This document shows positions 49,976 to 63,490 of a DNA stretch of 64,000 nt, piece after piece; within the stretch, counting starts at the first letter, position 1, and the number at the start of each line of letters is the position of its first letter. Source of the stretch: Pseudomonadota bacterium (lineage in GTDB: Bacteria; Desulfobacterota; Syntrophorhabdia; Syntrophorhabdales; Syntrophorhabdaceae). The translations under genes and the position numbers were made by a program. The stretch lies in NCBI GenBank assembly GCA_026388275.1, contig JAPLKB010000012.1, positions 1 to 64,000 on the forward strand. The letters run 5' to 3'. The notes beneath the pieces are model-generated. The model saw nothing but the letters and a program-made list of their open reading frames with translations, did no database searches and was not told the DNA's origin.

Positions 49976-51766
49976 TTATTCATGATCATAAAACACGTTC
50001 GATACGACCCTCATATTCTCTTCAAATTCTTCTCTCTCCAACAAAGGCTCCATGTCCTCATTTGGCCTTCCATATTTCACCTGTGGTACAACCCTGTGCT
50101 CCGGAGAAATCTCTACATTACAAAAAAACGCCTCGTTGCTTTCGAGAACCTCTCTCACGCCTTTGGCCAATTCATTGTTGCGATTTAAAGTAATTGTTTT
50201 ATATCCGTAGGCCTGGGCAATCTTAACAAAATCGGGAAACGCTAACCCGCTTTCAGTGGTAGATGCTTCATAGCCAGAATCGAACCACTGATCCTGCGTT
50301 TGCCGAATCATACTGTACCCTTTATTGTTTACCAGGAAAATCTTAATGGGCAGCTGGTGATAAATAATTGTTGATAATTCCTGGATATTCATCTGCAGGC
50401 TCCCATCGCCAATCACACAGATTACCTGGCGTTGCTCACTTGCAAAACATGCTCCGATACTAGCCGGCAATGCCCATCCCATAGCTGTATTATTCCAATC
50501 GTGATAGACTCTCTGATTACTTTTAAAATCAAAGGCCTGCATCGTCCAAGCCAGAGTGCAACCTGTATCAACCACGATGATACTGTCCTTATCACAGCAA
50601 TTTGAAAGTGTTTTGATAAAAACATAAGGATTTATTTCCTCTTCTGCGTAGTATTTACTGGTGCAAATGGGGTATTTCTGTTTCCATATTTTGATCTGCT
50701 CTAACCAGTTAGAAATTTGTCTACCTCTACTGCTTTTTTCAATATCCTTTTTAAGGTTGAGCATACCAAGAAACTTCTTAGCATCAGAATGAATAAGAAG
50801 TGTAGTTTTCATCTTAAATTTTTGAAATTTTGACAATTCAGAGCGGTCTATGTCCAAAATAATTTTTTTAGCTGCCCTTGCAAAACTTGTCATTGGACTT
50901 CCCGTTGCTTTGGTGTCTAACCGGGAGCCTATCGAGAATATTAAATCAGCATTCTGTACCGCAAAATTAGCATATCTTGTTCCATGAGTTCCGAAAGTAC
51001 CAACCGACAATGGATGGTATATTGGCAATAAATCAGCAACAGCCCAAGTTGTAACAACGGGAAAACCAAGATTACTTATCAATTCTTCTGTCTCTTTTTC
51101 TGCTTTTGCAAGTCGGATTCCCCAACCTAAAACAATTATTGGCCTTTTGGCATTGTGTAGTAGCCGAACGCACAAATCTACTTGCTTCTTTATATAATCG
51201 CTATCGTCTAATGCTTGTTCGGGGATAAAACTTACTAATTTGTTTGGGTCGACCTGTTCCCTTTGAACATCGTCAGGGATGTCTATCAATACAGGCCCGG
51301 GCCTTCCAGACTTCGCCAAATAACATGCCTTCTCCAATTCGTACCTAATATTGGTCGGATCCTTTATGCAGACAGCATATTTCGTAACATGTCTAAAAAT
51401 ATCGACTGTATCTGTTTCTTGAAACCCGATCTGGCGAACACCCAGGTTCCCTTTCATTCTAAATCTTGCAACTTGACCGGTAATGTAAATTACGGGCACG
51501 GAATCATAATAAGCACCACAAACACCGGTTAACATATTTGTGGCGCCTGGTCCACTGGTTGCAATTGCAGCGCCCAAATTACCAGTAACTCTTGAGTAAG
51601 CATCTGCTGCCATAGCACCTGCTTGCTCATGCTGTGCACATATATAATTCATGCCATCTTTTTTTGCAATAGAATCAATCAAGTGCGCAGATGCGCCGCC
51701 ATTTACTACAAATACGTGTTTGATGCCTTGTTTAAATAGAAACTTCGCTATGTAGTCTGATACTTT
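49976..51766 (-). CDS. Thiamine-diphosphate enzyme of acetolactate synthase type
   Basis: About 596 residues from the inner ATG (MKVSDYIAKFLF). It has the three-domain ThDP layout: VVNGGASAHL and AQHEQAGAMAADAYSR with the catalytic Glu at the N-terminus, a central FAD-type domain with IIVLGWGIRLAKAEKE, and a C-terminal GDGSLQMNIQE...LVNNKGY metal-ThDP motif. It lies near an E1 alpha/beta pair and an SDR, so it may add a two-carbon unit from pyruvate to a keto sugar, as YerE does in yersiniose synthesis, rather than make branched-chain amino acids. No regulatory subunit gene is present. Confidence 0.88.
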   Translation of the reverse strand, partial: KVSDYIAKFLFKQGIKHVFVVNGGASAHLIDSIAKKDGMNYICAQHEQAGAMAADAYSRVTGNLGAAIATSGPGATNMLTGVCGAYYDSVPVIYITGQVARFRMKGNLGVRQIGFQETDTVDIFRHVTKYAVCIKDPTNIRYELEKACYLAKSGRPGPVLIDIPDDVQREQVDPNKLVSFIPEQALDDSDYIKKQVDLCVRLLHNAKRPIIVLGWGIRLAKAEKETEELISNLGFPVVTTWAVADLLPIYHPLSVGTFGTHGTRYANFAVQNADLIFSIGSRLDTKATGSPMTSFARAAKKIILDIDRSELSKFQKFKMKTTLLIHSDAKKFLGMLNLKKDIEKSSRGRQISNWLEQIKIWKQKYPICTSKYYAEEEINPYVFIKTLSNCCDKDSIIVVDTGCTLAWTMQAFDFKSNQRVYHDWNNTAMGWALPASIGACFASEQRQVICVIGDGSLQMNIQELSTIIYHQLPIKIFLVNNKGYSMIRQTQDQWFDSGYEASTTESGLAFPDFVKIAQAYGYKTITLNRNNELAKGVREVLESNEAFFCNVEISPEHRVVPQVKYGRPNEDMEPLLEREEFEENMRVVSNVFYDHE

Positions 51767-51832
51767 CATCAATGATTTTAAAATTCCCGACGAACTCAAA
51801 CACCTAACAACCAAATACAATGACACATATTG

Positions 51833-51967
51833 CTAAATCCTGTGAAAAAGCTCCGTCAACCTTGATGTCCAGGGACCCAACGTTGCCTCAGGAGTTTCAA
51901 ACTGATAATCAGTGCCCTCCCGATAACATTTTTTTGCTGATTTAGTATCGATCTTATTTGCTGCCAT
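51833..51967 (-). pseudogene. Truncated N-terminus of a polysaccharide-locus methyltransferase
   Basis: A 44-codon frame: its middle part, CYREGTDYQFETPEATLGPW, resembles the N-terminal start of class I methyltransferases found in O-antigen clusters, where it is followed by a DPKH.CFVL.RYKF block. Here the sequence runs on into an unrelated 10-residue tail and stops just before the ThDP gene. The rest of the gene is missing. A small genuine protein is the alternative. Confidence 0.45.
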
Positions 51968-52001
51968 ATGCGCTCTTTTTCTCAGAATTACCTGAATTTT
52001 T

Positions 52002-52814
52002 TCAATCGCTGTTTCTAAACCGTCTTAGCTTGAATGCATTATAATCATCCCTGAGTTTGCAGATAAGTTCCTTACCACCGTTTCTCCATGCGTCATGTAC
52101 GATAGAGAAATTCCGACCACCAACAGTTTCTTTCCCTTGCTGAATACACCAGTTGACAAAATCATAGATTTCTCGTACGGAAGTTTCCTGTTGTGTTGAA
52201 CTGAGAAAGGAAAGCGTTTTTTCATAATTTTCTTGTGCTCCAGAAGGATTATTGATTGTTTGTTCATGGATTTTTGTCCTTACCCATCCAGGACCGATAA
52301 TGAATATATTTAAATCAGGGTTTTCGTCATCCAGAAGTTCACACATTTTTATGAGAAAAATTTTAGATGCACAGTAAGCCGAGTAGTTCCGAAATGGACC
52401 ATTGGTTCCACCACCGGCAAAAAAAACAATATTAGACATTCTGCTGGTTTCTCTCAAGGGATAGAACGAATGAAGGACACGAAGCTGAGCAGTGGTATTG
52501 CTTATCGCGGATGCTTCCCACATATCAAAGTCAGACTTAAAAAAACTACCGATGGGTTCCATATTCCCTATGCAAGAGATAAAAATCTCCCATGGTTTCA
52601 AAAATGCTTGATATTGCATAGTCATAGTGGCAACTTCCTGTTTCTTGCTAATATCACAAGGAAATAGGTGAATATGATCTCTTGTAAATAAGTGCTTTAC
52701 ATGATCTATGTTGCGGTAGGTGCCAAACACATTATACCCATCGTCTACATAGTATTCCACAAGTGCTTTGCCAATATCGCTACTTGCGCCAAGGATAAAA
52801 ACGGTTTTGCTCAT
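52002..52814 (-). CDS. Short-chain dehydrogenase/reductase
   Basis: A 270-residue classical SDR. It has the NAD(P) loop FILGASSDIGKALVEYY, the NAG-like FISCIGN stretch and YCASK (Tyr and Lys of the catalytic triad) after IVFFAGGG. It is followed by GPGWVRTKIHEQTINNP, with PGWV in the usual place. In the YerE/YerF precedent a reductase follows the ThDP enzyme, so this SDR could reduce the branched intermediate. Its substrate is not determined. Confidence 0.87.
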   Translation of the reverse strand: MSKTVFILGASSDIGKALVEYYVDDGYNVFGTYRNIDHVKHLFTRDHIHLFPCDISKKQEVATMTMQYQAFLKPWEIFISCIGNMEPIGSFFKSDFDMWEASAISNTTAQLRVLHSFYPLRETSRMSNIVFFAGGGTNGPFRNYSAYCASKIFLIKMCELLDDENPDLNIFIIGPGWVRTKIHEQTINNPSGAQENYEKTLSFLSSTQQETSVREIYDFVNWCIQQGKETVGGRNFSIVHDAWRNGGKELICKLRDDYNAFKLRRFRNSD

Positions 52815-52907
52815 TGATTAGATTTCCAGAAAGTTACTTAAAATAGAATTCAAATAAATCTGGTTATATTTACAGCTTATAATTCAGATCCTTTTCATTG
52901 GAACAGT

Positions 52908-53966
52908 TTAGAAAGGCCCGGTGAATGACAGATCAGGGACGTCAAGAGGAGCTTGGTGGCATATTCCTGCCTCTTCCTCAGTTACCTCCGACATTTTCAG
53001 CATCTTCCTTGCAGTATTCACAATATCAATAGCCCGTGGGTAATAGTGGTTGGTTAAAGCAAAGCTGGTAGGTGTGGGGACATCAGCAAAAGCAATACGC
53101 TTGGGCGCACATTTTAAAGAATCGAATGCCTTCTCTGAAACCATTGCCATTATCTCCGCAGACACCCCAAAACTCTGCCATGCACCGTCTACAACCAGCA
53201 AACGGCCTGTTTTATCGATTGAATCGAGGACCGTCTTTTCGTCGAGTGGCTTTATGGTCCGCAAGTCAACCAATTCTACCTCTATTCCTTGCTCTGAAAG
53301 CACATTCGCTGCCTTGAGTGCCTCGAGCGTCATGAGAGATGATGAGACGATTGTCAGATCCGTCCCTACTCGCATCAATCTCGCCCCCATGGTACTCGCA
53401 TATTTCTCCTCAGGAACATAGCCGAATGTTCCGTGAAGCCATCTATGCTCTATGTAGATTACCGGATTATCATCTTCCACCGCTGCTACCATCAGCCCTT
53501 TCGCATCATATGGCGTTGCAGGCATTACAACCTTAAGCCCTGGGATGTGGGCAAACAACGCTTGCAGACTTTGAGAATGCTGCGGTCCCTGCCCCCAGCC
53601 ACGGCCAACAAGGAGGCGTATCGTAAGCGGCACTTTCATTTTCCCGCCGAACATATAATGCCATTTTGCTGCATTGTTGATAATCTGGTCAAGCGAAAGA
53701 AGCATGAAGTCTACACGTTGATGTGTCATTATAGGCCTCATACCTACAATGGCCGAACCAATTGCCACACCTGTCATACCATTCTCAGATACAGGCATGT
53801 CACACACTCTGTTATCCCCAAATTTCTCCTTGAGACCAAGGGTTGTACCAAAAATTCCTTTTGGATCAGGCACCCCAAGCCCCATGATGTAAACTGACGA
53901 ATCTGCTGCCATACATTGTTCGGTAGCTTCTAAAATAGCTTGTGCATATGTGATTATTCTATCCAA
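52908..53966 (-). CDS. E1 beta-like (transketolase-type) ThDP enzyme subunit
   Basis: A 352-residue protein related to PdhB/AcoB. It shows TYAQAILEATEQCMAADSS, VYIMGLGVPDPKGIFGTT, VCDMPVSENGMTGVAIGSA with the ThDP-activating Glu, LLVGRGWGQGPQHSQSLQAL and VELVDLRTIKPLDEKTVLDS. It pairs with the E1 alpha-like gene immediately upstream. No E2 acyltransferase or E3 gene accompanies them, so the pair may work as an acetaldehyde- or glycolaldehyde-transfer enzyme for a surface sugar rather than as a dehydrogenase. Confidence 0.9.
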   Translation of the reverse strand: MDRIITYAQAILEATEQCMAADSSVYIMGLGVPDPKGIFGTTLGLKEKFGDNRVCDMPVSENGMTGVAIGSAIVGMRPIMTHQRVDFMLLSLDQIINNAAKWHYMFGGKMKVPLTIRLLVGRGWGQGPQHSQSLQALFAHIPGLKVVMPATPYDAKGLMVAAVEDDNPVIYIEHRWLHGTFGYVPEEKYASTMGARLMRVGTDLTIVSSSLMTLEALKAANVLSEQGIEVELVDLRTIKPLDEKTVLDSIDKTGRLLVVDGAWQSFGVSAEIMAMVSEKAFDSLKCAPKRIAFADVPTPTSFALTNHYYPRAIDIVNTARKMLKMSEVTEEEAGICHQAPLDVPDLSFTGPF

Positions 53967-54000
53967 ATTAAATCACTCTTATTCATTTCGCATTTCTCCT

Positions 54001-54960
54001 TTAAGCATATACTTCTGCAAATGCGCTTTTAGGGTCTGGAAAGGGGCTGGATTTGGCAAAGTCAAAAGCTTCACTGATTTCTTCATGAATTCTTTTCACC
54101 ATTTCCTTTACTTCAGAGTCAGAGATAATTCCTTCATTTTTAAGAGATTCTTCAATATGTTTTATCGGGCAACGGCCTTGCCATGTGGTAAACTCATCCT
54201 CTGCCCGGTATCCAAGATCATTGTCATAATTGGGACCGCAATGTTCACGCCACCGATATGTGTCAAACTGAAGATAATATGGCCCCAATCCCTGATTTAT
54301 GTGTGCGATTGCCCTCTGTGCGAGAGTATAGACGTCAAGAACATCATTGCCGTCACCTTTCTCTCCTGCTACACCATAGGCTCTTACAATGGATAAATTA
54401 TCTCTCTCAGGCGGTTGGCGAACGAAAAGCGGGGAATAGACAGAATAGAAATTGTTTTCACAGATAAAAACTATTGGCAGCTTTTTCAATGATGCAAAAT
54501 TCAGACTCTCACAGAAGACTCCTTCTTCTGTGGCTGCATCACCGAAAAATACAGCAGTTATACTACGTTTTTCCTTTAAAATTGTGCCAAAGGCAAGGCC
54601 TACCGCAACAGGAATGCTGCTGCTTACTATCGGGGTGGCGCCAACAAAATTAGCTGAAAGATCGACAAGATGCATAGACCCGCCCTTGCCTTTTGAACAT
54701 CCCGTTGCTTTTCCATATATTTCTGCAAGCATGGCTTTCAAATTTCCGCCTTTCGCAAGGTAATGACCGTGTGAACGATGGTTGCTCATTACATAATCTT
54801 CTTTTGACAGATTAGCGCAAACGCCAACGGCAACAGCTTCCTGCCCGATGCATAAGTGAACAGGGCAACGCATTTCCTGTTCAGAGTAGTGTTTAGCAAT
54901 GGCTTCCTCGACCATTCTAATCCGCAGCATATCAAAATACATCTTTTTCTTTAATTCCAT
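54001..54960 (-). CDS. E1 alpha-like ThDP enzyme subunit
   Basis: About 319 residues from the inner ATG (MELKKKMYFDMLRIRMVEEA). MSNHRSHGHYLAKGG, KGKGGSMHLVDLSANFVGA and FFGDAATEEGVFCESLNF, with VFICENN 25 residues later, are the usual ThDP and Mg2+ contacts of PDH E1 alpha (GDA replaces the common GDG). The phosphorylation-loop region is YSVYSPLFVRQPPERDNL. The longer start would overlap the upstream epimerase gene. Function is tied to its beta partner. Confidence 0.9.
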   Translation of the reverse strand: MELKKKMYFDMLRIRMVEEAIAKHYSEQEMRCPVHLCIGQEAVAVGVCANLSKEDYVMSNHRSHGHYLAKGGNLKAMLAEIYGKATGCSKGKGGSMHLVDLSANFVGATPIVSSSIPVAVGLAFGTILKEKRSITAVFFGDAATEEGVFCESLNFASLKKLPIVFICENNFYSVYSPLFVRQPPERDNLSIVRAYGVAGEKGDGNDVLDVYTLAQRAIAHINQGLGPYYLQFDTYRWREHCGPNYDNDLGYRAEDEFTTWQGRCPIKHIEESLKNEGIISDSEVKEMVKRIHEEISEAFDFAKSSPFPDPKSAFAEVYA

Positions 54961-54976
54961 GTCTATAGGTTTACCT

Positions 54977-55921
54977 TTATTCCAGATTGTCAAGCTGTTT
55001 CATTGCTCTAATATTATACCAATTGTCTTCATCATGAAGTTTGCCGGAATTAAATGCATCAATAATTTCACGCATTGCATCAATAACTTTGTGTTTTGGT
55101 TTAAAACCGGTGCTCAATAGCTTGTCTGCATTGAGCCGGTATGAACGTGGATCGTTTGATTCACTCACGATGATTTCGGCGGGGATTAATTGTGCCGCCA
55201 TGTGGGCAATGTCCAAAATGGAAATATTTTCGAAACCGGCATTATATATACCCGTTGCTTTGTCGCCAAGATTGAGGAAATGAATGAATACGTCAGTAAT
55301 GTCCTGGATATGTATGTTTGGCCTCGTTTGATCTCCACCGAAAACTGTTATTCTTCCGTTTGCTAATGCTTGTATTGTGAGCATATTAACAGAGAGGTCA
55401 AGGCGCATCCTCGGGGAATAGCCGCATATGGTAGCAGGACGAACAATATGAATTGCAATTTTATCTTTATAACTCAATAGCACCCGTTCGCTGATCATTT
55501 TGGTTTTGTTGTAATCGGAAATTGGCACCAAAGGAAGGTCTTCAGTTACCTGCGGATCATCCTTAACACCATATACGCTACCAGAACTTGATAGAACAAA
55601 TTGCTTCACGTTATGTGAAATAGCCTTTTCTACCAAACCCATCGTGGCTAAAACATTTACTTCCCATGAAAGCTTTGCATTTAAGTCTCCACAGGGATCA
55701 TTGGCTATATTGGCAAGGTGTATGATGCCGTCAATTCCCGACATCGGCACAGCGTCAATGTTTCGAATGTCGCCCCGGATAATTTTCAAATTTTTGTGTT
55801 CTTTCAGAAAATTCCCAAACCACATAATATCGTAAACAGTTACTTCATGCCCAAGATTAAGCAGCTTGGGAACCAACACCGATCCCACATAACCGCACCC
55901 ACCGGTCACAAGAATTTTCAT
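54977..55921 (-). CDS. NAD-dependent epimerase/dehydratase
   Basis: A 314-residue extended SDR. ILVTGGCGYVGSVLVPKLL is the NAD-binding start, HLANIANDPCGDLNAKL marks an N-terminal subgroup, VLSSSGSVYG holds the catalytic Ser and DYNKTK the Tyr-Lys pair. It may epimerise, reduce or decarboxylate a nucleotide sugar. It lies 14 bp from the GDP-mannose-dehydratase-like gene, so the two probably act in sequence on the same sugar. Confidence 0.85.
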   Translation of the reverse strand: MKILVTGGCGYVGSVLVPKLLNLGHEVTVYDIMWFGNFLKEHKNLKIIRGDIRNIDAVPMSGIDGIIHLANIANDPCGDLNAKLSWEVNVLATMGLVEKAISHNVKQFVLSSSGSVYGVKDDPQVTEDLPLVPISDYNKTKMISERVLLSYKDKIAIHIVRPATICGYSPRMRLDLSVNMLTIQALANGRITVFGGDQTRPNIHIQDITDVFIHFLNLGDKATGIYNAGFENISILDIAHMAAQLIPAEIIVSESNDPRSYRLNADKLLSTGFKPKHKVIDAMREIIDAFNSGKLHDEDNWYNIRAMKQLDNLE

Positions 55922-58626: not shown

Positions 58627-60165
58627 TTATCGGAGTAGATGCGAAATATATTTTTGTGTACTCTGCCTATCAATGGACTTTTTATTACCAACAATCTCAA
58701 CAGCTAAAGAACCGACGGCATTTCCAATAAACCCTATTATTTCTGCTGGTGCAAGCTGAGCAGCAGCAAGAGAAGTAACCGCAAAAAAGGCATCTCCAGC
58801 CCCTACACGGTCAACGATGTTTTGTGCAAACGATGGAACTTCGATAAAATCACCCGTAGGATTCCTGACTAATGCACCTTCGCGGCCTCTTGTTACTACA
58901 AACTGTCTGCAACTTAGATTTTGAGCAATATGCTCTATCATTGGCTTCAAATCACCGTTAATGGTCCTTGTCTCAAGCCTTATTTCATGTTCAGCTATAC
59001 AGGCATAATCAGTACGAGGATATCGCGAAATTGTATGAAATCCCCTATTTCCGGCGTTTGCCTGGGTATTTACCGCAAGAAACGGGGAGTGGTCTGCAAG
59101 AGTTTTAACTAAATTTTCACTTATTGCACCATGTCCAAAATCGGCTGCGATAACAAGATCGTAATTTTGTGCCTGTTCCTGAACCCACATGCATAATTGA
59201 TTATCTTTTTCAGTATTAAGTCCGGAACTGTCCATTACATAAACTTCAAAAAGTTTATTAAGAGAATATCCTTCAATGAACCGCCGTTTGATTAAAGTAG
59301 GGGCGTTATCCTGCGTTACAAAATATGGATCGATATTCGACCGAAGCTGTGAACGAATAAAATCCTCGTGGCTGTCTTTTTCGCCTATTAAAGTGACAAG
59401 CTTTACTGACTTGGCAAAGTTCGCAACATGGTTGGCAACAGCAAGCACACCACCAGCAAAAAGATCATGCGATTGGTACTTAAGAGCAAGAACCGGGTCT
59501 TTTGACGACTTCCCTATGACTTCACAATACTGGTACTCATCGAGAATGGTATCGCCAACAACAAGAACCCTGAGGTCAACCATGTTGTTGATAGTTTGCA
59601 AAACTTGTTCCTTGCTATATCGTTGGCGAAAAACACTCAAATATTCTTCAACCTCATCCGATATAGTATTTAAGTAACGATTTATCAAATCAGTAGAGCT
59701 AAAATGCACATCATCGGTATATGCAAGGTTTCCCCCGACTTCTCGGATTGCCTCTTCTTCTTTTCTGCTATTTCCTGAATTATCAGGAGGACGATTCTTA
59801 AAATCAGCACCTCTTGCATAAATATCAGGTTTTAAAAGTCTAATAGTCTCAACCGCCGTTGGCCATTTATTAATTGCTACATAGTCTGCAAAGTGTAGCG
59901 AAGCAACCATTTCAGAACGTAGCAATTCGTTAAACACTGGTCTTCCGGGACCCCTGTTTACATAGCGGTCAGGGGTTATAGTAACAATTAAAATATCTCC
60001 CATCTTTTTTGCCTGTTCCAGATAACGAATATGGCCAATGTGTAGAATGTCAAAAATTCCATGACAGTGGACTATTCTTTTTCCTTCAGACTTTAAAGCC
60101 TGGATTCTATTTGCAAGTTCTTTAAGTTTAAGAAGTTTCAAATTATAATAACTCCCTTTCGACAT
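58627..60165 (-). CDS. Bifunctional HldE-like protein, domains in reversed order
   Basis: A 512-residue fusion. The first about 170 residues are a nucleotidyltransferase (VHCHGIFDILHIGHIRYL with the HxGH at 42-45). The C-terminal about 320 residues are a PfkB kinase (VLVVGDTILDEYQY, FAGGVLAVANHVA, RVGAGDAFFA with the catalytic Asp near 458). E. coli HldE has the kinase first, so this is the opposite order. It should phosphorylate and nucleotidylylate a heptose phosphate. It overlaps gmhB by 23 bp. Confidence 0.87.
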   Translation of the reverse strand: MSKGSYYNLKLLKLKELANRIQALKSEGKRIVHCHGIFDILHIGHIRYLEQAKKMGDILIVTITPDRYVNRGPGRPVFNELLRSEMVASLHFADYVAINKWPTAVETIRLLKPDIYARGADFKNRPPDNSGNSRKEEEAIREVGGNLAYTDDVHFSSTDLINRYLNTISDEVEEYLSVFRQRYSKEQVLQTINNMVDLRVLVVGDTILDEYQYCEVIGKSSKDPVLALKYQSHDLFAGGVLAVANHVANFAKSVKLVTLIGEKDSHEDFIRSQLRSNIDPYFVTQDNAPTLIKRRFIEGYSLNKLFEVYVMDSSGLNTEKDNQLCMWVQEQAQNYDLVIAADFGHGAISENLVKTLADHSPFLAVNTQANAGNRGFHTISRYPRTDYACIAEHEIRLETRTINGDLKPMIEHIAQNLSCRQFVVTRGREGALVRNPTGDFIEVPSFAQNIVDRVGAGDAFFAVTSLAAAQLAPAEIIGFIGNAVGSLAVEIVGNKKSIDRQSTQKYISHLLR

Positions 60166-60703
60166 TGTCAGGAGATTTACCCAAAATATATAACAATGCT
60201 TCTGACCAGTTTGAAGCTATAAAGTCCGGCATCGGAACAAAGTTATTTAAAACAGAATTATTTTCCAACAAAATAGTTCCACATCCAGCCCGCTTGCCAG
60301 CTTCAATATCACTTTCCTTATCACCGACCATAAAAGAATGGGTAACATCAATATCTAACGCTTTTGCAGCAAGTAAAAGCATTTCCGGTGATGGTTTGCG
60401 ACAAGAACACTGTTCTTCGGGGGCATGAGGGCAATAGTAAGTAGCATCGATTGATATTCCATTTTTCTCTAAAATAGAAACAATGTGCTCGTTTACCTGT
60501 TCCACCTCGTTAAGGGTCAATATACCCCTCCCTATACCGGACTGATTGCTGACTACAATTAATTTAAATCTGTGCTTCTTTAAGCTTTTTAAGGCTTCAA
60601 TAACTCCAGGAAGCAATTCAACTTGTTTCGGATCTTTCGGATAACCTACATCATGGATGATTGTCCCATCCCGATCTAAAAAGATAGCATTTATTTTACC
60701 CAA
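60143..60703 (-). CDS. gmhB: D-glycero-manno-heptose 1,7-bisphosphate phosphatase
   Basis: A 186-residue HAD phosphatase. FLDRDGTIIHDVGY supplies DxDGT, VVSNQSGIGRG is motif II, the CPHAPEEQCSCRKP zinc loop is characteristic of GmhB, and MVGDKESDIEAG is motif IV. It removes the 7-phosphate of heptose bisphosphate. It overlaps the gmhA gene by 8 bp and the HldE-like gene by 23 bp, so the three heptose steps are translated together. Confidence 0.93.
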   Translation of the reverse strand: MGKINAIFLDRDGTIIHDVGYPKDPKQVELLPGVIEALKSLKKHRFKLIVVSNQSGIGRGILTLNEVEQVNEHIVSILEKNGISIDATYYCPHAPEEQCSCRKPSPEMLLLAAKALDIDVTHSFMVGDKESDIEAGKRAGCGTILLENNSVLNNFVPMPDFIASNWSEALLYILGKSPDNVERELL

Positions 60704-61268
60704 AGATTTCTTTCTCTACTATTTTGCAAATGATATGCTCAATCACAAGGTGCATCTCCTGGATGCGAGGCGTGTCAGTTGATGGAGCTTTTATGACCAT
60801 ATCGCTGTGTGCTGCAATGGTATTTTCTATTTCGCCAGTTAGAAGTACGGTCTTTATTCCTATTAACCGGCCGGCCTTGAATGCTTCCAGGACATTGCCA
60901 GAACTGCCGCTTGTACTAATACCAAGCAGGACATCACCCGGTTTGCCAAGGGCTCTTACCTGACGGCTGAAAATTTGGTCATAGGAATAGTCGTTGGATA
61001 TAGCTGTAATTACCGATGTATCGGTTGTAAGGGCTATAGCAGGGAAGGGTTCCCTGTCATTATAAAACCTGCATACAAATTCACCTGCAATATGCTGAGC
61101 ATCTGCCGCACTTCCACCGTTGCCGCAAATCATGAGTTTGTTGCCAGATTTTATTGCACTGATTATTATCCGGGCAGTTTCATGAATTCGACTGACAGTG
61201 TCGTGGTCAGCAATTATTCTCTGTAAATTTTCTATTGTTGTCCGGATCGTATCTTTAATAATTTCCAT
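60696..61268 (-). CDS. gmhA: Phosphoheptose isomerase, first gene of the polysaccharide operon
   Basis: A 190-residue SIS isomerase converting sedoheptulose 7-phosphate to manno-heptose 7-phosphate. MICGNGGSAADAQHIAGEFV, LTTDTSVITAISNDYSYD, GISTSGSSGNVLEA and IQEMHLVIEHIICKIVE are typical GmhA blocks, including the zinc- and substrate-binding Glu and His. It starts the minus-strand operon, about 300 bp downstream of an ops element. Confidence 0.94.
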   Translation of the reverse strand: MEIIKDTIRTTIENLQRIIADHDTVSRIHETARIIISAIKSGNKLMICGNGGSAADAQHIAGEFVCRFYNDREPFPAIALTTDTSVITAISNDYSYDQIFSRQVRALGKPGDVLLGISTSGSSGNVLEAFKAGRLIGIKTVLLTGEIENTIAAHSDMVIKAPSTDTPRIQEMHLVIEHIICKIVEKEIFG

Positions 61269-61566
61269 GTTGATAAACTCTTTATCTGTAAAAAGATTTA
61301 TTAACCGCTTGTTGCGGACCTGCTTTTCCTGTATTTCAAACTTCCAAAATTGATAAGCTTGCAGGAATCCTAAAAATTACCATAAGATAAAACAATCTTG
61401 CTACTGTTAAGTGCGGATTGTTATATATATGGTCTGTCTTGCCGGCATTATAAGTTGCTTGCACATTGTACAAGACCGTATATACTTCGTATCTCTTTGA
61501 AAGATTAATGCATCCGCATATCTGATTAATTCTGACCGGTGATTAATGATATTGAGCTGAAAAGGT

Positions 61567-61577
61567 AAGCTACCGCC
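61567..61577 (-). promoter_or_regulatory. ops element (JUMPstart core) for RfaH-type antitermination
   Basis: The minus strand reads GGCGGTAGCTT, a full match to the ops consensus GGCGGTAGNNT, which pauses RNA polymerase and recruits RfaH in enterobacterial LPS and capsule operons. It lies about 300 nt before gmhA, in the untranslated leader of a 43-kb co-oriented sugar operon, exactly where it should act. No rfaH gene is in the window. Confidence 0.8.
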
Positions 61578-61634
61578 GTTATAAATTGTCATAACATAAT
61601 AATATTAAAGTAATTTTCGTATCGAGAGCCATCT

Positions 61635-61714
61635 CAATAAAAAAATAATTTAAAACAACCGGGGTTGAAAATCAATATTTTATAGCTGTTTTGTCCTACT
61701 TAAAAACCCCCGGT
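61635..61714 (-). terminator. Possible leader terminator/attenuator upstream of ops
   Basis: On the minus strand ACCGGGGGTT can pair with AACCCCGGT (one bulged base, 38-nt loop), followed by a T-rich stretch TGTTTTAAATTATTTTTTT. The large loop makes it a weak terminator candidate. If real it would stop transcription just before the ops site. Confidence 0.3.
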
Positions 61715-61722
61715 ATCTGTGC

Positions 61723-61768
61723 TATATATCACTTCCAGCCTTGTATTACAAGTGTTTTGTCGTGTCAA
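61723..61768 (-). promoter_or_regulatory. Candidate sigma-70 promoter of the polysaccharide operon
   Basis: TTGTAA, 17-bp spacer, TATATA on the minus strand (61751-61723) fits a sigma-70 promoter; a perfect TTGACA lies 12 bp further upstream (61768-61763) and could pair with TACAAG at 17 bp. Either would give a leader that includes the ops element. Confidence 0.4.
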
Positions 61769-61933
61769 GCCAGATGTACCTTTCCGCTTTATCTTGCGCA
61801 TCTTCTTCGTCTTCCATATCTTGTGGATTCTTAAAACATGTCCCGGTACTATATCCGCAAACAGTCAATTTCTGCTGATTTTTTCTTAATGCTTTGACAA
61901 TGTCGGCTATTGTACAATAAACTTATTGTTCTT

Positions 61934-63490
61934 ATGATGATTGAAAACTTAATTACCTACATCTCGCGGAAAAAAAATGCAGATTACCTGCAGTTTATCC
62001 CTTCAACCTCACTGGACATGCATCCGACGTCAGCTGATGCCCCGACCCTGCTCTACATGCATGTGCCTTTCTGTGAAGAACTCTGCCCATACTGCTCCTT
62101 TAATCGTGTAGTCTTCCAGGAGGGGCTTGCACGTGAATATTACCGTGCTTTACGCAAAGAAATTCTTATGTACAAGAAGCTGGGGTACGATTTCCGGGCT
62201 CTTTATGTAGGAGGGGGAACCCCCACTGTCCTTATTGATGAACTTGATGAAACTATCAATTTAATAAAGGAAAATTATCATATTTCTGAAATATCCGTTG
62301 AGACAAACCCTAACCACCTTACAAGTAATAATATTGAACATTTAAAGGGAATGGGGGTAAACAGACTTTCTGTGGGCGTACAAACCTTTGATAACGGCAT
62401 CCTGAAGGCACTGGAGCGTTATCATAAATACGGGAGCAGTGAGGAGATAGCTGACAGGTTGAAATATACACAGGGTATATTTAACACACTCAATGTAGAT
62501 ATGATATTCAATTTTCCCACACAGACGATGGAGATCCTTGAAAATGACCTGTCAACTCTCATCGGACTGGGTGTAGATCAGGTAACATACTACCCTTTGA
62601 TGGTCTCTTCTTATACAAAGGATGTAATGAGCAAAAAGCTGGGGGTTGTAAACTACGAAAAAGGCAACCAGCTCTATTTTAAAATAATTGAGATGCTCTC
62701 TGTCCACTATGTAGCAAGTACAGCATGGTGTTTTTCGAAAAAAGAAAGGATGCCGGGGGAGGCTCCAGTTCATCCGAGGGACGTAGGACGTACAGTCAAC
62801 ACCCACTTTTGTGGGTACCCGGCTCCTTCGGACGTAGGACGAGAAGGCATTTACGTCCAGGCGCAAGCGGACATCCCAGCGAACATAAGTGAACGGACAT
62901 CCCTCATGCATACGGAAAATAAGGAGGGGGCGACGCAAGCCAACACACAAAACGTCAGCGCGATAAATAGCTCACACGGTGAGCGGGAAGGGAAGGCTCC
63001 GACGGCTTTGCCAGTGGAGGGGGCGACGCAAGCCCCAGTAATTGACGAATACGTTGTCCACTACGAAGAATATGCAGGTATCGGAAGCGGCTCTATTGGT
63101 TATCTGGGGGGAGTTGCTTATGCAAATACCTTCGATATAAGAACCTATATCGATCAGGTGGACAGGGGTATGCTGCCCATTACCGGAAAAAGAGTTTTTT
63201 CCATTAAAGAGAGGTTATGTTATGACTTCCTGATGAAACTTTTTGGTCTGAGCCTTGATATTAAACAGTTAAGTATCAGGAATAAAGTAAATGCTAACCG
63301 ATATCTTTGGTCCGAAATCCTCTTCTTCAGATTTGTCGGCGGTTTAAAAAAGTCGGGTAATACTTTATTCCTGACCAAAAAAGGACAATATTACTGGGTT
63401 CTTATGATGCGCGAATTTTTTATCGGAGTAAACAACTTCAGAGACTTTTGCCGTGCTGAAATGGTTTCAAAAACAAAACAAGGGAGATAA
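61934..63490 (+). CDS. HemW/coproporphyrinogen-oxidase-like radical SAM protein with in-frame insertion
   Basis: About 518 residues from ATG 61934; a TTG eight codons upstream is an alternative. The radical SAM motif is PFCEELCPYCSF, then YVGGGTPTVLIDEL, ISVETNPNHL, RLSVGVQTF, NVDMIFNFPTQT and EYAGIGSGSIGYL. These are HemN/HemW-like, although true HemW is about 380 residues. A foreign, repeat-rich segment (residues about 278-368) interrupts the usual link between WCFSKKE and IDEYVVHYEEY. Catalytic regions lie outside it. Its role may be heme handling or another radical SAM reaction. Confidence 0.85.
   Translation: MMIENLITYISRKKNADYLQFIPSTSLDMHPTSADAPTLLYMHVPFCEELCPYCSFNRVVFQEGLAREYYRALRKEILMYKKLGYDFRALYVGGGTPTVLIDELDETINLIKENYHISEISVETNPNHLTSNNIEHLKGMGVNRLSVGVQTFDNGILKALERYHKYGSSEEIADRLKYTQGIFNTLNVDMIFNFPTQTMEILENDLSTLIGLGVDQVTYYPLMVSSYTKDVMSKKLGVVNYEKGNQLYFKIIEMLSVHYVASTAWCFSKKERMPGEAPVHPRDVGRTVNTHFCGYPAPSDVGREGIYVQAQADIPANISERTSLMHTENKEGATQANTQNVSAINSSHGEREGKAPTALPVEGATQAPVIDEYVVHYEEYAGIGSGSIGYLGGVAYANTFDIRTYIDQVDRGMLPITGKRVFSIKERLCYDFLMKLFGLSLDIKQLSIRNKVNANRYLWSEILFFRFVGGLKKSGNTLFLTKKGQYYWVLMMREFFIGVNNFRDFCRAEMVSKTKQGR
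62770..63039 (+). repeat. 270-bp repeat-rich in-frame insertion in the HemW-like gene
   Basis: Flanked by GCTCCAGT and GCCCCAGT, it adds exactly 90 codons. It contains a 19-bp direct repeat (GGAGGGGGCGACGCAAGCC at 62923 and 63016), a repeated GGACGTAGGACG, a repeated CGGACATCCC, and two hairpins: ACCCAC-TTTT-GTGGGT at 62801 and GCTCAC-ACG-GTGAGC at 62970. All three plus-strand codon phases stay open in the frame used. The composition (G+C-rich, low complexity) differs sharply from the gene around it. Confidence 0.8.

Follow-up and report, generated by a model that had tools for sequence, protein, structure and literature searches.

In E. coli, the ops element acts as a consensus-type pause (PMC5995543, PMC7593976) at which RNA polymerase halts and a hairpin in the non-template strand offers G5 and T6 to residues K10, H20, R23 and R73 of RfaH, which displaces NusG and helps to bring in the ribosome (PMC5995543, PMC11001881, PMC7593976). 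JUMPstart leaders carry a conserved stem-loop (PMC2864571). The barrel-form RfaH homologues tested in PMC13015549 were active independently of ops, and for NusG paralogues besides E. coli RfaH, those encoded in cis included, the mode of recruitment has been called open (PMC7593976).

The locus described here lies in a 64-kb stretch of DNA (the window) from a member, as judged by its named relatives, of the Syntrophorhabdaceae, within the Desulfobacterota and thus outside the enterobacteria, as an earlier note on this DNA had supposed. Like the RfaH-ops system of E. coli, it has the fixed bases of ops at a leader site before a long polysaccharide operon, and its genome encodes a single, unlinked NusG paralogue, apparently trans-acting, with the housekeeping NusG kept beside it; it differs in the host and in that ops here ends GC[CT]T[AG]. 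Given that the motif is present, conserved and suitably placed, that the genome has the paralogue and that ops is linked to such paralogues elsewhere, all of which was observed directly, we put at about 85% the probability that this is a working ops element, which would recruit the RfaH-like paralogue encoded on contig C8 and reduce Rho-dependent polarity over a gene run of ~43 kb.

The ops element, its leader and the gene run behind it

A complete match to ops had been claimed on the minus strand, about 300 nt before gmhA in a 641-bp leader; GGCGGTAGCTT was read at the position given below, and both distances were recovered, with the gmhA ATG ~300 nt from the last base of ops. The features of the leader and of the genes that follow are these:

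61647-61675, minus strand: candidate promoter TTGATT-17-TAAATT
61578-61595, minus strand: weak hairpin (-2.4 kcal/mol) directly preceding ops, the counterpart of a stem found at many other sites
61567-61577, minus strand: ops element reading GGCGGTAGCTT, an exact GGCGGTAGNNT match
61560-61908, minus strand: leader segment common to the congener G001, 76% identical over 349 nt (BLAST of the leader)
61347-61543, minus strand: decayed 5' portion of a gmd gene (GDP-mannose 4,6-dehydratase), 197 nt, frameshifted and 69% identical to gmd of G001
60696-61268, minus strand: gmhA, which opens the run (SIS_2; phosphoheptose isomerases among NCBIfam models score best)
60143-60703, minus strand: gmhB-like HAD phosphatase gene
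58627-60165, minus strand: hldE-like kinase/nucleotidyltransferase gene
18016-61268, minus strand: run of 41 co-directional ORFs, the presumed target operon

With its flanks the element reads ACGGCGGTAGCTTA (61566-61579, minus strand), and it is the sole exact GGCGGTAGNNT within the window. The intergenic gap (61269-61909) is bounded by gmhA, which ends at 61268, and by a divergent plus-strand ORF at 61910-63490; at 13 per 7.05 million strand-bases, the expectation for the leader's sense strand is some 0.001 GGCGGTAGNNT sites, an arithmetic done after the fact. Part of the leader described as gene-free is the decayed gmd fragment. Likewise "perfect ops" is accurate for the DNA, but the protein scores below the RfaH equivalog cut-off and lacks two of the four residues with which E. 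coli RfaH contacts ops.

Similarity to the leader of G001, in which ops occupies the same position, ends just past ops, and the sequence downstream diverges. A 42-nt BLAST match spanning ops was also found in G009, of another genus, and GGCGGTAGCTTA is intact in the leaders of both relatives. The reading frame next after ops in G001 is an intact gmd, where the window carries the gmd relic between ops and gmhA; as the similarity stops past ops and a relic is left behind, the operon downstream of ops was probably swapped while the leader and ops were kept. The hexamers and spacer length of TTGATT-17-TAAATT are identical in G001, and although it falls below the threshold of the promoter scan it is our preferred candidate for the leader promoter; a transcript begun there would reach ops after ~60-65 nt. 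The scan itself gave a sigma-70-like promoter (61625-61596), which was dropped because its transcript start would fall within the hairpin before ops.

The run behind the leader contains surface-polysaccharide genes (heptose, NeuB/NeuA, DegT, glycosyltransferase and Polysacc_synt_2). It has 11 gaps of at least 60 nt, the largest of 412 nt, and no intrinsic-terminator-like site was found on the coding strand in the run gaps scanned (17900-57790 and 60600-61950). The ~43-kb run may be a single transcript. The TPP-dependent enzymes encoded within the run, at 49976-54993 on the minus strand of the window, an E1_dh/transketolase pair and a three-domain TPP enzyme, are unusual in polysaccharide loci.

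Ops sites in the genome and in the family

GGCGGTAGNNT occurs 13 times in the whole source genome and its reversed pattern 20 times, so there is no enrichment and the count alone was dropped as evidence. Sorted by a mechanical ORF rule, ten of the 13 lie within ORFs. These figures favour the view that an 11-mer with nine fixed bases fell in the leader by chance and means nothing there. The three gene-free sites, however, all share the sequence GGCGGTAGC[CT]TA and all head, or sit in, polysaccharide gene runs, these being the window site and two on contig C65:

C65, 52073: gene-free ops preceding a response regulator gene, then galE, gmd and an fcl-like gene
C65, 46641: gene-free ops within the run, preceding a ParB-like gene, then a nucleotide-sugar dehydrogenase gene

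The C65 run continues with genes for an epimerase, an aminotransferase, a flippase, glycosyltransferases and a Wzy-type ligase, and with its two ops sites forms a second large polysaccharide cluster at ~22-53 kb of that contig (minus strand; loci L336 and L339). An extended match, GCCCGTAGCTTACCTTTT, on contig C10 was judged to be a chance one; by eye, it appears to lie in a topoisomerase-like coding region with a DprA-like ORF adjoining.

Among 60 relatives, GGCGGTAGCTT and AYGGCGGTAGCVTR were searched and the surroundings of 30 sites each examined. Gene-free sites made up 15 of 30 for GGCGGTAGCTT and 20 of 30 for AYGGCGGTAGCVTR, compared with one of 30 for the reversed control. Of these gene-free sites, 12, 19 and 0 respectively had an ORF on their own strand no more than 500 nt away; distant genomes were more widely represented among the control loci, and the ORFs were called mechanically. 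Summed over the family, the sites of AYGGCGGTAGCVTR came to 61 and those of its control to 16. The first genes behind gene-free sites were mostly polysaccharide genes (wza, wzz, gmd, neuA, ugd and similar; families and genes Poly_export, Wzz, gmd, CTP_transf_3, UDPG_MGDP_dh, Polysacc_synt_2 and NTP_transferase); APS kinase and T2SSE were also seen, and the other classes included sulfate activation, type II/IV secretion and FecR. The idea that ops sites occur only before large sugar or secretion operons thus fits all three sites here, once the ORF-internal ones are set aside, and fits predominantly in the relatives. It is this context, of conservation in the leaders of two relatives and of gene-free sites in polysaccharide runs, that takes the motif beyond chance, and linkage to an rfaH-like gene across phyla (below) also speaks against a meaningless match, to which we give the very least credence. 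The AYGGCGGTAGCNTR form was not found in the family genomes G003, G013 and G020, all of which carry the paralogue. At two loci (L107:2024-2926 and L118:2033-2911) the gene directly behind ops encodes a MarR_EPS regulator fused to a GmhB-like heptose phosphatase, the MarR_EPS part being TIGR04176, which is over the cut-off in L107.

The hairpin bears on another explanation, in which the leader works through RNA, as in antitermination of the LoaP or JUMPstart type, with the nascent hairpin before ops doing the recruiting and ops merely a part of it. At 27 of 81 non-redundant gene-free sites there was a stem of at least 4 pairs that left precisely 3 nt between its end and ops, compared with 8.7 +/- 2.6 in shuffled sequences (maximum 15 in 100 shuffles), and a stem-loop a little before ops in polysaccharide leaders is what JUMPstart (RF01707) has in the gammaproteobacteria. 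Here, however, stem sequences vary from site to site; although the stem is a feature of the 81-site set, no strong hairpin was found in the window leader, and for its G001 orthologue the stem was not predicted at all. Rfam searches, including the RF01707 covariance model, gave no relevant match in the window leader and 14 related loci. With the protein also falling far short of the LoaP model (below), recruitment by RNA is very unlikely.

The RfaH-like NusG paralogue

Searching the genome with PF02357 returned two NusG-domain genes, on contigs C6 and C8. The first is the housekeeping NusG gene, which adjoins ORFs resembling those for ribosomal proteins L11 and L1. The second confirms the earlier expectation of a NusG/RfaH paralogue in this genome, and is unlinked to the window:

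Contig C8 of the source genome (G000:C8:56902-57396): RfaH-like NusG paralogue gene, 164 aa, on a contig other than the window's

Orthologues with 52-91% identity are kept in most relatives of the order. The best NCBIfam model of the C8 paralogue is RfaH (TIGR01955), at 110.1 bits and under its cut-off of 144.5, and the UpxY model (NF033644) was missed at 76.1 bits (cut-off 100). LoaP, likewise a NusG paralogue serving long biosynthetic operons, uses an RNA element; none was recognised here, and the C8 paralogue reached 60.2 bits against the LoaP model (NF033641), whose cut-off is 125. E. coli RfaH is the nearest solved structure by sequence.

The C8 paralogue shares K10, R16 and R73 (R72 here) with E. 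coli RfaH. K10 and the TRG arginine (R73) are invariant in sets A1 and A2; R16 is invariant in A1 only, varying in the wider A2. In contrast, the E. coli ops pocket has H20 and R23, which are N20 and S23 here and are also lacking in the paralogues of relatives. By eye, the Rho-binding loop of NusG has been lost, the genome's own NusG having NIFGRTTPVELDF where the paralogue has DSVKYSATVEID, and counterparts of E48 and R138 are present. Best AF2 models for two relatives (L198 and L206), built on shallow alignments, have a beta-barrel KOW and not the autoinhibited helical form of E. coli RfaH, and Foldseek put RfaH fully recruited at ops in second place; the five models for L198 span 69 to 91 pLDDT, and with the shallow alignments this spread leaves room for a fold switch. 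If the barrel prediction is right, these paralogues would resemble the monomorphic RfaH of PMC13015549, and as ops is conserved it would still matter for them even in barrel form. Since defining features of RfaH were looked for and found wanting, the protein is not filed as an RfaH equivalog; it is best read as a protein that probably works like RfaH with ops.

Linkage of ops to RfaH-like genes in other lineages

Seventy loci were drawn by their RfaH-like protein alone, and 247 genomes of the phylum in a separate draw, neither chosen for ops. Both Nitrospirota and other families of Desulfobacterota were found to have ops on the strand of the RfaH-like gene and ~10-450 nt away from it; such linkage was seen at nine or more of the 70 loci. 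In Nitrospirota and neighbours, ops lies 45 nt before the RfaH-like gene at L200 and 112 to 160 nt behind the matched stretch at L199, L201, L205, L206, L207, L210 and L212. Nine genomes of the 247 also have the linkage (G055, G092, G161, G234, G244, G071, G107, G264 and G251); chance would yield well under one. Because ops played no part in selecting either loci or genomes, no other result ties the motif to the protein as strongly. An excess of ops counts over control was not found outside the order, where the support is one of location only. Literature searches, with most subscription journals outside their reach, found no reports of ops in Nitrospirota or Desulfobacterota.

The linkage also bears on how much weight to give to a motif that is simply a consensus RNA polymerase pause, aiding leader folding or ribosome loading, with the paralogue recruited otherwise or without regard to sequence. 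Such a role would suit the pausing nature of ops noted above and the paralogues of relatives, with their predicted barrel KOW and missing H20 and R23. A generic pause, however, needs no tie to an RfaH-like gene, and here the entire GGCGGTAGC core stands beside such a gene, or in trans to it, across large evolutionary distances, so that we regard a pause alone as unlikely.

For the preferred reading, that of a working ops element served by the C8 paralogue, we infer pausing, binding and antitermination at the window site. RNA polymerase heading through the leader to gmhA would pause at ops; the unlinked paralogue would read the non-template strand of the paused bubble, bind RNA polymerase in NusG's stead and travel along with it, lowering Rho-dependent polarity across the polysaccharide run and perhaps coupling ribosomes to the polymerase. 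The same protein would also serve the two C65 sites. The earlier interpretation, that an RfaH/NusG paralogue controls this locus, is supported on these sequence grounds.

The paralogues of Nitrospirota and some other Desulfobacterota adjoin their polysaccharide gene set, as does UpxY among the cis-encoded paralogues (UpxY of Bacteroides, TaA of Myxococcus). Different from these, ops adjoins the paralogue gene in Nitrospirota and some Desulfobacterota loci, and the gene in the window's genome is unlinked. The same DNA signal is thus tied to RfaH-like genes far from the enterobacteria, in cis and in trans. Tentatively, at somewhat under even odds, ops-directed recruitment may be both older and more widespread than the fold-switching gammaproteobacterial RfaH. 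The rfaH-like gene, ops and polysaccharide operon would have formed an ancestral cassette in cis that persists in Nitrospirota and several Desulfobacterota families; in the Syntrophorhabdaceae its parts would have come apart to give a trans regulon; and these proteins would read ops without an autoinhibited helical KOW, by a partly different base pocket. These protein-site pairs are candidates for asking whether the reading of ops preceded, or arose without, the RfaH fold switch, and they provide a usable ops consensus with which to predict the polysaccharide regulons of uncultured Desulfobacterota and Nitrospirota.

In five Nitrospirota loci (L202, L206, L210, L211 and L212) the interval from the rfaH-like gene to ops holds a shared promoter-like stretch containing the palindrome GTTCAGTGCCTGAAC, or one much like it, which may be an operator; an ORF resembling an EPS-associated MarR regulator follows ops at the same loci. 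At L219:4954-5331 the rfaH-like frame seems to terminate in the ops sequence with gmd next, as a truncated gene or an overlap, and at G251:C174:83978-85235 a short rfaH-like fragment is flanked by ops copies on either side.
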